Positions 40 to 4,262 of a DNA stretch of 64,000 bases are shown one piece after another (the first letter of the stretch is position 1; each line of letters begins with the position of its first letter). Both the position numbers and the translations under genes were made by a program. The stretch comes from an uncultured Chlorobiaceae bacterium (GTDB lineage: Bacteria > Bacteroidota > Chlorobiia > Chlorobiales > Chlorobiaceae). The DNA is taken from assembly GCA_903824045.1 (NCBI GenBank), contig CAIJVD010000035.1:1-64000 (forward strand), read 5' to 3'. The notes below the pieces were generated by a model. It worked only from the letters and a program-made list of their open reading frames with translations, did not search any database and was not told the DNA's origin.

Positions 40-735
40 ATGCCAATGTCAGAACGCCCGGTTCATGAGCTTATAAAGGAACTTGAGAGAGTGCTGGTGC
101 AGCTCTCCGACAAGGTTCTGGAGAACTTCTTCAACGCCCTGCTCGCCGTAAAGCAACAGGATGAGCATGGTGCGCGCCGAATCAGGCGTATAGATGACGA
201 GATCGATCTCGAAGAGGTTGATCTCGAAGAGCGCTGTCTTGCATTTCTGGCATTGCAGCAGCCGGTGGCCCGAGATCTGCGCACGATTGTGACCATCATG
301 AAGATCAACGACGACCTTGAGCGCATTGGCGACCTGGCGGTGCACATCATCGACCGTATGCCGGAGATCAGCCCCGAGATGTTTGCATCGTTCGAGTTCG
401 AGAAGATGGGCCTGCATGCCGGCCAGATGGTCAGAATGTCATTGGACGCCTTCATCGAAAAAAACCGGGCACTGGCCGACAGGGTCTGTGCGCTCGATGA
501 AGAGGTCGACATGATGCACCGCACCGTGTTCAAAAAGGTTACGCAGCTGATGAAGAGCCCGGATTCAGAGATTGTCGACCAGCTGATTGCTACGCTCAGC
601 ATCTCGCGCTACATCGAACGCATGGGCGACCATGCCACACGCATTGCGCGCGAGGTCATCTACCTGGTGACAGGAAAGATTGTTCGCCACAAGGGGGATT
701 TCTACGAAAACCTTCTCGAGTCGCTCAAAGAGTGA
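40..735 (+). CDS. phoU: Phosphate signalling/transport regulator PhoU
   Basis: PhoU is a cytoplasmic all-helical protein that restrains phosphate uptake by the Pst transporter and the PhoR kinase. The 231 residues match the usual length and hold the two expected PhoU repeats, each with the acidic metal-cluster motif: DDLERIGD at residues 91-98 and an equivalent YIERMGD near 191-197. ATG at 40 and ATG at 46 are both possible; neither has a strong ribosome binding site. The window starts just upstream, so any pst genes before it cannot be seen. It is followed after about 70 bases by a repeat protein, a CHAD protein and a ParA ATPase on the same strand. CHAD proteins are tied to polyphosphate, so the neighbourhood looks phosphate-related. 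Family assignment is secure. Confidence 0.95.
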   Translation: MPMSERPVHELIKELERVLVQLSDKVLENFFNALLAVKQQDEHGARRIRRIDDEIDLEEVDLEERCLAFLALQQPVARDLRTIVTIMKINDDLERIGDLAVHIIDRMPEISPEMFASFEFEKMGLHAGQMVRMSLDAFIEKNRALADRVCALDEEVDMMHRTVFKKVTQLMKSPDSEIVDQLIATLSISRYIERMGDHATRIAREVIYLVTGKIVRHKGDFYENLLESLKE

Positions 736-806
736 GCAGGCTTCAGGGAGATAATCAACAGCTAATCATGCACCTCACAACCATCATTCAACAGTAGCGC
801 CAAATA

Positions 807-1910
807 ATGCCTGAAAAAACAAAACCCTTGTCGTTCAAAGAGGTTATGGGAGATCTCGATGGCAAAGGGGATATAGATTGTTCCAATAAAAACCTGACTT
901 CACTTGAGGGCTGCCCTGAAATCATCGAAGGCCATTTCAATTGCTCCGGCAACAGATTGAAATCGCTTGAAGGCGGACCTGGAGAGGTTCATGGAGACTA
1001 CGATTGCTCAAACAATCAGCTGAAAGCTCTCGACGCTTCACCGGACCGGATACATGGCGATTTCGACTGCTCGGCAAACCTCCTGAATTCACTCAAAGGT
1101 GGACCAAAAAGAGTGAAAGGCAGCTTTGACTGTTCGTTCAATCACCTGACAACCCTTTCCGGCGCCCCTCACAAAGTAAGCAGCGATTTCATCTGTTCAG
1201 ACAACCGCCTTATCTCTCTCGAAGGATCTCCGCATGAAGTTGTCGATTATGACTGTTCGAATAATCAGCTGACAACACTTGACGGCGGGCCGGAGGAGGT
1301 ACGGGGAGATTTCGAATGCGCGAACAATCATCTGACGACGCTCAGAGGCTCTCCGGCTTTTGTTATCGGAGATTTCTCATGCAGAGGCAATCAATTGACA
1401 TCACTCAAAGGCGGACCGGTAGAGGTATATGGACACTTCGACTGTTCAAACGACAAACTGATTTCATTGAAAGGCGCGCCAAAGGTAGTCGGCGGAGACT
1501 TCTCATGCAGAGGCAACCAGCTGATATCGCTCAAAGGGGCTCCACCAGAGGTTGTGGATTTTGATTGTTCCGGCAATCTGCTTGCAACACTCGAAGGCTG
1601 CCCGGAAAAAGTAGGCGGAGATCTGTCATGCAGGGGCAACAGACTTACATCGATCAAGGGTGCTCCGCAAAAAGTCAAGGGCAGCTTTGACTGCTCGGGA
1701 AACCTCCTGACCTCCCTTAAGGGCTCCCCAAAAAAGGTTAAAGGTCACTTTAACTGCTCAGGAAACCCCCTGACATCGATCGATGGCCCTTTAAAAAAGG
1801 TCGGCGGAAATTTAACTTGTGGAACTGCTTCCGGACTCATCACAGAGAGTAGCGTTCGTGACGCCTGCACCATAAAAGGCGGCTATATTGACGCAAGTGC
1901 ACTGCCTTGA
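807..1910 (+). CDS. Degenerate leucine-rich-like 21-residue repeat protein
   Basis: After a 20-residue N-terminal segment, residues 21 to about 333 are about 15 tandem repeats of 21 residues (two are one residue short). The repeat consensus is roughly G-D-F-D-C-S-x-N-x-L-T-S-L-x-G-x-P-x-x-V-x, with an almost invariant Cys at position 5 and Asn at position 8. The remaining 34 residues are unlike the repeats. This looks like a short leucine-rich-repeat-like solenoid of a type found in phage and environmental bacterial proteins. There is no signal peptide and no membrane segment, so it should be cytoplasmic, probably a binding scaffold. Its partner and job are unknown. It sits between phoU and a CHAD protein with gaps of 71 and 36 bases, which suggests co-transcription. 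Repeat structure is certain, function is not. Confidence 0.85.
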   Translation: MPEKTKPLSFKEVMGDLDGKGDIDCSNKNLTSLEGCPEIIEGHFNCSGNRLKSLEGGPGEVHGDYDCSNNQLKALDASPDRIHGDFDCSANLLNSLKGGPKRVKGSFDCSFNHLTTLSGAPHKVSSDFICSDNRLISLEGSPHEVVDYDCSNNQLTTLDGGPEEVRGDFECANNHLTTLRGSPAFVIGDFSCRGNQLTSLKGGPVEVYGHFDCSNDKLISLKGAPKVVGGDFSCRGNQLISLKGAPPEVVDFDCSGNLLATLEGCPEKVGGDLSCRGNRLTSIKGAPQKVKGSFDCSGNLLTSLKGSPKKVKGHFNCSGNPLTSIDGPLKKVGGNLTCGTASGLITESSVRDACTIKGGYIDASALP

Positions 1911-1946
1911 AGCGCCTGTAAACCTTGCATTTCAAGTCATCTACCT

Positions 1947-3509
1947 ATGGATAGCCGCGAAAAAAACATTTTTTTTCACTCGATCGATCAGAGTGAGTCC
2001 TGGCAGGCATTCGAAAACTCCCTGCCTGCCGGCTGGAAGCTCTCACCCCTCTGCTCACACCGCGAAGAGCGCCTTTTCTACGATACCTTTGAATGGCAGG
2101 CGTTCTCTCAAGGCATGGCAGTTATGCAAAAAAAGGGGCGGCTGCATATTTTCGACCTCAGTACAGGCAATGATCTGTCAGCGATGAGCTATCAGAGAAC
2201 CCCTTCCGCTCTCTTTGCATCAAATTTAGCAGAGTGCAAGACGAAAGCCCTGCTCTCATCCTGCAGTGATATCAGGGCATTCATCCGGCTCTCGGCCTTT
2301 GATGTTGTTGTTCAGACCCACAGGCTCCTCAACGACAACGACAAAACCGTCGGCATTCTCTCCTCCCAAAAATGGCGCATTGCCGGCAAAGGCCACAACC
2401 GAAGTGCTCTTCAGGTGATTGCGCTGAAGCCACTTCGGGGGTATGAACGCGAGATCGAAGGGTTCGAAAAGTCACTCTCAGGCCACGATGCACTCAAAAA
2501 GGCAATGGAGTTCAGGGAACTCTTTCTCCTGCTGATGGGCTCATCCGGACTGAACGTCGAGGGCTATTCCTCTAAAATCAGGCTTCAGCTTGACCGGGAT
2601 GCATCCATTCACGAGAGCGCCCGGAAACTGCTCCGCGTCACCCTTGCCGTCATGCGCCAAAACGAAAACGGCATCATCAAGAATATCGATACGGAGTTTC
2701 TGCACGATTACCGTGTCGCCATCCGCAGGACACGCTCCATTCTCAAACAGCTCAAGGGTGTGTTCGATCCGGCGGAAACCGCGCACTTTCTCAATGAGTT
2801 CAGCTCGCTTGCCAAACGCACCAACGCACTGAGGGATACGGATGTCTATCTCCTCAATCGGACACTCTACCCCGCCTGGCTCCCCCCGCTCCTGCAGCCC
2901 GACCTGAAACCACTCTTCAGCGACATCGAGGCCACACGAAAAAAACTGCACAAACAGTGCTGCCGCCACCTCAATTCCGCCGACCACCGCGCATTTTTCG
3001 ACAAATGGGAGCGGTGGATCACGCACACAGGAGTTCCTGACAAAGTGGACGCCCCAAACGCCGCCACCCCTACCGTTACATTTGCGGCCTCAGCTATCAA
3101 AAGGTCGTGGAAAAAAGTCGTCCGCAACGGCCGACAGATCAGCAGGGAAGCGACGGACAGCGAGCTGCACAGCCTTCGTATAGACTGCAAGAAACTTCGC
3201 TATCTGCTCGAATTCTTCTCGTCGATTTTTCCCCGAAAAACAATAGGGCCAGCGATCGGGCATCTGAAAGAGCTGCAAGAGAATCTCGGGAGTTTCGTAG
3301 ATTACGCTGTACAGCTTGAGTTTCTCGAGCGGCGGCTCGTTTCAATGCCAGCAACAGCCGGTGTTGTCGCCGGGGCTGCAGCTACAGGGGGACTGATAGC
3401 AATCCTTCATGGAAAAAAGGAGAAGGCCCGCCGGAAATTCCATGAGACCTTCAGAGTGTTCGACAACGACGAAAGCGCCGCACTCTTTCATGAACTCTCA
3501 ACCCCTTGA
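1947..3509 (+). CDS. CHAD domain protein with a degenerate CYTH-like N-terminus
   Basis: CHAD domains are conserved helical domains rich in His, Arg and Lys that bind polyphosphate and, in several bacteria, sit on polyphosphate granules. Here the CHAD part starts near residue 221 and has the typical first block LHDYRVAIRRTR (252-263) and second block LHSLRIDCKKLRYL (about 409). Residues 1-200 contain FYDT (44-47) followed by a pattern resembling the CYTH tunnel fold that usually precedes CHAD, but the CYTH hallmark E-x-E-x-K is missing, so this half is probably degenerate or divergent. A small hydrophobic Gly/Ala-rich stretch near residue 470 could be a loop or weak membrane contact. The ParA gene starts 6 bases after its stop, strong evidence for translational linkage. 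Function beyond polyphosphate association is inference. Confidence 0.85.
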   Translation: MDSREKNIFFHSIDQSESWQAFENSLPAGWKLSPLCSHREERLFYDTFEWQAFSQGMAVMQKKGRLHIFDLSTGNDLSAMSYQRTPSALFASNLAECKTKALLSSCSDIRAFIRLSAFDVVVQTHRLLNDNDKTVGILSSQKWRIAGKGHNRSALQVIALKPLRGYEREIEGFEKSLSGHDALKKAMEFRELFLLLMGSSGLNVEGYSSKIRLQLDRDASIHESARKLLRVTLAVMRQNENGIIKNIDTEFLHDYRVAIRRTRSILKQLKGVFDPAETAHFLNEFSSLAKRTNALRDTDVYLLNRTLYPAWLPPLLQPDLKPLFSDIEATRKKLHKQCCRHLNSADHRAFFDKWERWITHTGVPDKVDAPNAATPTVTFAASAIKRSWKKVVRNGRQISREATDSELHSLRIDCKKLRYLLEFFSSIFPRKTIGPAIGHLKELQENLGSFVDYAVQLEFLERRLVSMPATAGVVAGAAATGGLIAILHGKKEKARRKFHETFRVFDNDESAALFHELSTP

Positions 3510-3515
3510 AGCAGG

Positions 3516-4262
3516 ATGAAAACAATTGCGCTCTACAGTATCAAGGGCGGAGTCGGCAAAACGGCTGCGGCGGTAAACCTCTCCTATCTCTCATCCCTCA
3601 GCTCCTCTCCGACACTGATCTGTGACCTTGACCCGCAGGGTGCCAGTTCATTCTATTTCAGAATCACCGCCTCAAGAAAGTATAACAGTGACAAGTTTCT
3701 CAAAGGAAGCAAAAAAATCTACAGCAATATCAAGGCCACCGATTTCGAGGGTCTTGACCTGCTGCCATCCGACTTCTCCTACAGAAACCTCGACATTGAG
3801 CTCGCTGAGGCAAAAAAGCCACAGAAGCGTCTGAAAAAGAACATCGAGGAGCTCAGCGACGAATACCGCACACTCTTTTTCGACTGCCCGCCGAATCTGA
3901 CACTGCTCTCAGAAAGCGTCTTTGCTGCCTCGGATATGATTCTGGTGCCCATGATCCCGACCACGCTCAGCATTCGCACCTACACCCAGCTGACCGAGTT
4001 CTTCGATGCCAACGGCCTCGACAGCTCCAAAATCCGGGCATTTTTCACTATGGTTGAAAAAAGAAAGAAGATGCATCGCGATATCATTGACGAGTACCGC
4101 GACTCGCCCGCATTTCTCTCCCAGACGATTCCCTACAACTCCGAGGTTGAGAAGATGGGTATCTACCGCGCCCCGCTTAATGCCGTCCTTCCTGCCGCCC
4201 CCGCATCAAAAGCATACCGCGCCTTGTGGGAGGAACTCCAGTCAATCCTCAATGAAGCCTGA
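3516..4262 (+). CDS. ParA/Soj-family ATPase
   Basis: A 248-residue ParA-type ATPase. It has the deviant Walker A motif KGGVGKT at residues 10-16 with the signature lysine K10, the switch/A-prime motif DLDPQGASS near residue 36, and a Walker B-like FFDCPP near residue 115. These ATPases bind DNA or membranes cooperatively and move or space a cargo (plasmid, chromosome origin, carboxysome, chemoreceptors). No ParB-like gene is next to it; instead the gene directly upstream, 6 bases away, encodes a CHAD protein. It is therefore probably not the chromosomal ParA and may be a cargo-positioning orphan ParA. The cargo is inferred only from neighbourhood. Downstream, 248 bases separate it from ilvN. 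Confidence 0.88.

Follow-up and report, generated by a model that had tools for sequence, protein, structure and literature searches.

A CHAD-ParA gene pair conserved in Chlorobi and other phyla as a candidate positioning system for polyphosphate granules

Among the described systems close to the locus reported here is McdAB, in which, as in our case, the gene of a ParA-type ATPase lies beside that of a cargo-binding partner and apart from the chromosomal parAB genes. The cargo of McdAB is the carboxysome, whereas that of our locus would be polyphosphate (polyP). Known ParA partners carry a positively charged, disordered N-terminus (PMC10241942), whereas the candidate partner found here is a pair of folded domains without such an extension. 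The orphan ParA/MinD proteins PpfA, ParC and BcsQ are likewise ParA relatives that work without ParB on cargo other than DNA, but their cargoes and partners are unrelated to ours and include no CHAD protein. ParABS systems differ by their ParB gene, which is missing beside the ATPase gene of our locus. Spacing of polyP granules along the nucleoid is known from AlgP of Pseudomonas aeruginosa (PMC9239181), which is a histone H1-like DNA binder and no ATPase. A review from 2025 names only AlgP for the positioning of polyP granules, lists the spacing component as 'AlgP/?' and gives its ATP dependence as unknown (PMC13052382). Green sulfur bacteria contain polyP granules; cells of Chlorobium thiosulfatophilum form up to three of them (PMC11269200).

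CHAD proteins of other bacteria are located on polyP granules, as cited in PMC9239181 and PMC6537752. According to the latter, the structure of the CHAD domain of Chlorobium tepidum (CtCHAD, Q8KE09) was determined in complex with a polyP 9-mer, and CtCHAD oligomerises further on long-chain polyP. Mutation of His253, Arg256 and Arg260, and of the residue equivalent to Arg296 in SsCHAD (Arg69), led to a loss of detectable binding. The published work was confined to the CHAD domain, and the passages covered here refer neither to a ParA encoded nearby nor to any function of the N-terminal domain. We found no published description of a CHAD-ParA (or CHAD-MinD) pair in a search of an open-access library. 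While ParA-driven positioning of cargo is a known kind of system, the cargo, the adaptor and the pairing appear to be new.

The window, i.e. the whole stretch of DNA analysed, comprises 64,000 nucleotides of an uncultured Chlorobiaceae bacterium (G000:C35:1-64000). Its base 1 is the contig edge, and nothing upstream of phoU is readable; because the frame of phoU is open to this edge, the start of the gene is uncertain. An earlier reading made from the sequence alone had described four consecutive plus-strand genes and proposed them as one system for positioning polyP granules. The coordinates and family profiles confirmed the genes (Table 1), which are separated by 71, 36 and 6 bases in the list of open reading frames. 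A cluster for branched-chain amino acids (ilvN-ilvC-leuB etc., named by inspection of the translations) follows 248 bases 3' of the ParA gene. No regulatory RNA was found near the cluster by Rfam, and promoter and terminator scans gave signals at chance level there. The genome of the window contains two PPK1 genes (C19:1359-1910 and C10:43638-44192), neither of them in the cluster.

Table 1. Genes of the CHAD-ParA locus in the analysed window
Feature	Position	Strand	Length and best profile
phoU (phosphate signalling complex protein)	40..735	+	231 aa, TIGR02135 2.6e-58
LRR-like repeat protein	807..1910	+	367 aa, ~15 repeats of 20-21 residues, LRR_4 1e-6
polyP-binding CYTH-fold/CHAD protein	1947..3509	+	520 aa, PF05235 2.3e-54
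ParA-type ATPase paired with the CHAD gene	3516..4262	+	248 aa, AAA_31 PF13614 2.8e-31

The CHAD protein is composed of a degenerate CYTH fold (residues ~1-205) and a CHAD domain (~207-519). Residues 207-519 match the crystallised CHAD domain of C. tepidum (PDB 3e0s, 6qv7; E ~1e-100) and are about 52% identical to it; Foldseek likewise matched 6qva, and the protein is the orthologue of CtCHAD. It carries the same polyP-contacting residues at the same numbers (H253, R256, R260 and R296). These are invariant in 29 aligned relatives and kept in 125-126 of 127 rows (some of them overlapping), the exceptions being gaps or unknown residues. Orthology and invariant contacts thus upheld the earlier assignment of the protein as a polyP binder. 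An AlphaFold2 model (mean pLDDT 89.7, pTM 0.84) showed a beta-barrel domain preceding the CHAD domain; its Foldseek matches were headed by CtCHAD, followed by ygiF of E. coli and triphosphate-tunnel enzymes. The matches to the triphosphate-tunnel fold (5a60, 6yp4, 7nsd and others) had a probability of 1.00. The label 'CYTH-like' given in the sequence-only reading was therefore right by fold, whereas Pfam returned no CYTH match in this protein. ygiF, a CYTH-CHAD polyphosphatase, shares domain order and folds with our protein, but the window protein and its relatives lack the catalytic ExExK signature at the first strand (absent in 29 of 29 rows, with one chance match elsewhere). Because of this lack, we rejected an active CYTH enzyme and regard the domain as a CYTH fold that is probably non-enzymatic. 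A basic N-terminal activator peptide was looked for on the CHAD protein and not found: the N-terminal 30 residues vary in net charge from -4 to +5 and are not conserved, and low pLDDT values at the N-terminus are limited to the first ~20 residues.

The ATPase exhibits the complete set of ParA motifs. The deviant Walker A motif K10GGVGKT16 with its signature lysine, the Walker A' residues D37, D39, Q41 and G42 (DxDPQG) and the Walker B residue D123 are invariant in 25 relatives from several phyla. The model of the protein (pLDDT 89.7) matched ParA/Soj structures best in Foldseek, then McdA and MinD; it superposes on McdA with a TM score of 0.84, although the Walker A motif listed for McdA is SGGQGKT (PMC9178275). 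The C-terminus, where MinD-type proteins would have an amphipathic membrane helix, is acidic and helical. In alignments, the position of the window protein corresponding to R189 of Soj is basic and that corresponding to R218 is acidic, though the protein family shows good conservation of a basic stretch, EKRKKMH.

Using the ParA sequence alone as query, we fetched the loci of the best 80 of 118 relatives. A CHAD gene is located directly upstream on the same strand in 72 of these 80 loci, which is far beyond chance, and the two genes overlap by four bases at 34 of 73 junctions (window included). The remaining eight loci consist of one contig edge (L004) and seven loci of Chlorobiaceae, whose genomes each contain exactly one CHAD gene elsewhere and exactly one copy of the window-type ParA. 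In these split genomes, the CHAD gene always lies behind a gene for an LRR-like protein (7/7) and is mostly followed by ppk1 (6/7). One genome even combines both layouts, containing a pstA-pstC-pstB-phoU-LRR-CHAD-ppk1 cluster and a separate CHAD-ParA pair (L105, L106). Among 66 sampled Chlorobiaceae genomes, 62 contain both genes (56 adjacent by coordinates, 6 split, yet both kept), three contain neither and one contains only a ParA fragment. Since PPK1 is present in all three genomes without the pair, we rejected its absence as the cause of the double loss; both genes were apparently lost (or missed) together, and not with polyP synthesis.

Of the 65 Chlorobi loci, counting the window, 42 encode PhoU, PPK1, PstA, PstC or PhoA within the fetched flanks, and loci of the Chlorobaculum type show the order HAD phosphatase-ppk1-LRR-CHAD-ParA (e.g. 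L109). In support of the sequence-only reading, the loci have a strong phosphate and polyP context (ppk1, pstC/A/B, phoU, phoA), but PhoU is not a fixed member of the locus. The order PhoU-LRR-CHAD-ParA of the window recurs in three further loci (L003, L032, L052), and PhoU and the repeat protein are often encoded elsewhere even within Chlorobi. Outside this group, both are missing from the loci examined except for one remote PhoU. We therefore rejected the four-gene system as a unit; its CHAD-ParA part is conserved, whereas PhoU and the repeat protein were added to it in particular lineages.

The repeat protein is built from some 15 units of 20-21 residues, whose consensus in a repeat listing is CSxNxLTSLxGxPxxVxGDFD. 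Its terminal caps are shared by its relatives (N-cap, F..vMG.LDG.GDIDCSN; C-cap, VR..C.IKGN). Its gene recurs beside phoU and CHAD and was seen in Chlorobi only. Because it is absent from the loci of other phyla, a universal role as ParA partner was rejected; going by gene order, the protein is a candidate scaffold. Examples of its position beside phoU are window 807-1910, L083 1814-2812 and L085 1394-2392. In several genomes, another phoU-LRR pair is located apart from CHAD, and the PhoU-LRR combination is a recurrent association in Chlorobi.

Adjacency of the CHAD and ParA genes had been suggested as a check across Chlorobi and other phyla, and it proved to be conserved well beyond the genome of the window, so that the idea of an orphan ParA with a CHAD partner next door gained support. 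The pair recurs in Desulfobacterota, in another family of Bacteroidota (G045), in a KSB1 genome and in a phylum labelled 'Gemmatimonadetes'. In the last of these (64 genomes, including G010), 15 genomes contain the ParA, and in all 15 a gene for a CHAD protein with the pseudo-CYTH domain lies directly upstream. In Desulfobacterota (345 genomes, including G014), a window-type ParA occurs in 19 genomes; upstream sequence is readable in 18 of these, and in 15 of the 18 the gene immediately preceding ParA is CHAD. Full-length pseudo-CYTH-CHAD proteins likewise occur in 19 of these genomes, and 15 of the 19 contain the window-type ParA, compared to none of the seven genomes whose CHAD protein lacks the N-terminal domain and four of 319 genomes without any CHAD match. 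Fisher's exact test gave values of 2e-19 for the co-occurrence and 5e-4 for the dependence on the N-terminal domain; these values call for caution, as the genomes are related.

In a tree of the ParA subfamily, CHAD-linked members are found throughout. Apart from those of the split Chlorobiaceae, the CHAD-less ones fall into a single clade of Bacteroidota or on long tips scattered over the tree. These exceptions include the ParA relatives of one Bacteroidota family (f9), where three of four genomes lack CHAD, a further genome without CHAD (G270), and two Desulfobacterota of unstated completeness that lack both CHAD and PPK1 (G650, G347). Because several relatives occur without CHAD, the ParA subfamily can evidently have other uses. 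Conversely, four Desulfobacterota contain a pseudo-CYTH-CHAD protein without the window-type ParA. One CHAD-less locus (L131) retains the argJ-like neighbour that lies upstream of CHAD in its relatives, as if CHAD had been lost there.

Judging from the sequences, the pair very likely represents a conserved module acting on polyP. The best reading of its function, to which we assign a probability of about 0.57, is a McdAB-like positioning of polyP granules. The CHAD protein would coat polyP or anchor to it via its basic CHAD surface, while ParA would bind to the nucleoid as an ATP dimer and be released locally by the CHAD-coated granule. Granules would then track the ParA gradient, which would space them apart and share them between the daughter cells, following the diffusion-ratchet logic of McdAB. 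We infer that CHAD and ParA are in contact, that the ATPase is stimulated thereby, that ParA binds DNA and that the granules move; the folds, motifs, pairing, co-retention and polyP contacts described above are observed. The pseudo-CYTH domain is the candidate for the part contacting ParA because the presence of ParA correlates with it, and oligomerisation on long-chain polyP, as in CtCHAD, would provide the multivalent partner surface needed by ParA systems. In particular lineages, the operon also encodes PhoU, PPK1, Pst or the LRR-like protein, which may link its expression to phosphate status. Several points count against positioning, namely the N-terminus of the CHAD protein, which is unlike those of known partners, the acidic residue at the R218-like position, the ParA proteins without CHAD and the pseudo-CYTH-CHAD proteins without ParA.

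Rather more tentative, at slightly less than even odds, is the wider proposal of a system, driven by ATP and the first of its kind, that positions and partitions polyP granules. It would consist of a dedicated ParA and a pseudo-CYTH-CHAD adaptor, be old enough to occur in Chlorobi, Desulfobulbales, some Bacteroidota, KSB1 and another phylum, and have its ATPase stimulated by a folded domain instead of a basic tail. The pair offers a concrete ATPase and adaptor for the spacing and inheritance of polyP granules in bacteria, and the question is testable in C. tepidum, where the polyP complex of the adaptor is already solved. If the proposal is true, the known cargoes of ParA ATPases would extend to a granule made of a non-protein polymer, and a role would be found for part of the numerous CHAD proteins and orphan ParAs that lack a known function.

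Instead of positioning granules, ParA may serve as a switch of polyP metabolism that acts together with CHAD on PPK1, PPX or the Pst-PhoU complex by controlling or recruiting them, as BcsQ serves cellulose synthesis. This would agree with the split genomes, where CHAD is followed by ppk1 instead of ParA, with the pst-phoU-LRR-CHAD-ppk1 order of L105 and with the occurrence of BcsQ among the profile and fold matches of the ATPase; moreover, the polyphosphatase activity of ygiF is enhanced by its CHAD domain (PMC6537752). We still consider such a switch unlikely, since the protein has the full ParA motif set and a fold nearest to ParA/Soj, the match to BcsQ is a distant one (TIGR03371, 62 bits vs. 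a cut-off of 158 bits), and it is CHAD that is fixed beside ParA across the phyla, and no enzyme. The module may also position another cargo, such as a chemotaxis array, the chromosome or a membrane complex, with polyP binding by CHAD only as a signal. ParA relatives without CHAD, some of them in genomes that lack PPK1 as well, indicate that the ATPase can serve another cargo, but in the tree they are either isolated tips or members of one Bacteroidota family, and CHAD was apparently lost in L131, which makes this rather improbable for the pair.

Mere hitchhiking of two functionally unrelated genes on one promoter appears very improbable to us. The Chlorobi loci are indeed mutually related, and four Desulfobacterota do without the ParA, but the same pair occurs in the same order in several phyla, is retained 1:1 even when unlinked, and is specific for the pseudo-CYTH-CHAD architecture (15/19 vs. 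0/7). Finally, the window ParA belongs to the ParA family and might work with a chromosomal ParB encoded elsewhere. The cluster contains no ParB-like gene, as had been noted from the sequence, and the sole ParB_N gene of the genome adjoins the only further ParA (contig C21), which is 31% identical to the window ParA; a remote ParB was therefore rejected as its partner, and the chance that one is involved is close to nil.

Some further arrangements were seen around relatives of the two proteins. Three of the four ParA genes of Bacteroidota family f9 adjoin a gene for a putative esterase (PF00756) or lie one gene away from it (L097 6131-8996, L098 5122-6645, L099 5391-6968), and the esterase is a possible different partner or cargo of these ParAs. 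In L127 (2-2273), a ParA of the same subfamily precedes an intact CYTH-like gene (MEIERKFLV) as well as a NUDIX-like one, with the upstream side cut by the contig end. One of the Desulfobacterota loci without ParA (L143, 688-8445) contains ppk1-like and ppx/gppA-like genes, the pseudo-CYTH-CHAD gene, an intact CYTH gene (EIERKF) and a SixA-like phosphatase gene, all names except that of CHAD being assigned by inspection. Lastly, in a locus of the Bacteroidota phylum (L146, 2323-5766), a CHAD gene without the N-terminal domain and without ParA is located directly behind a gene that, by inspection, resembles those of Na/phosphate cotransporters.
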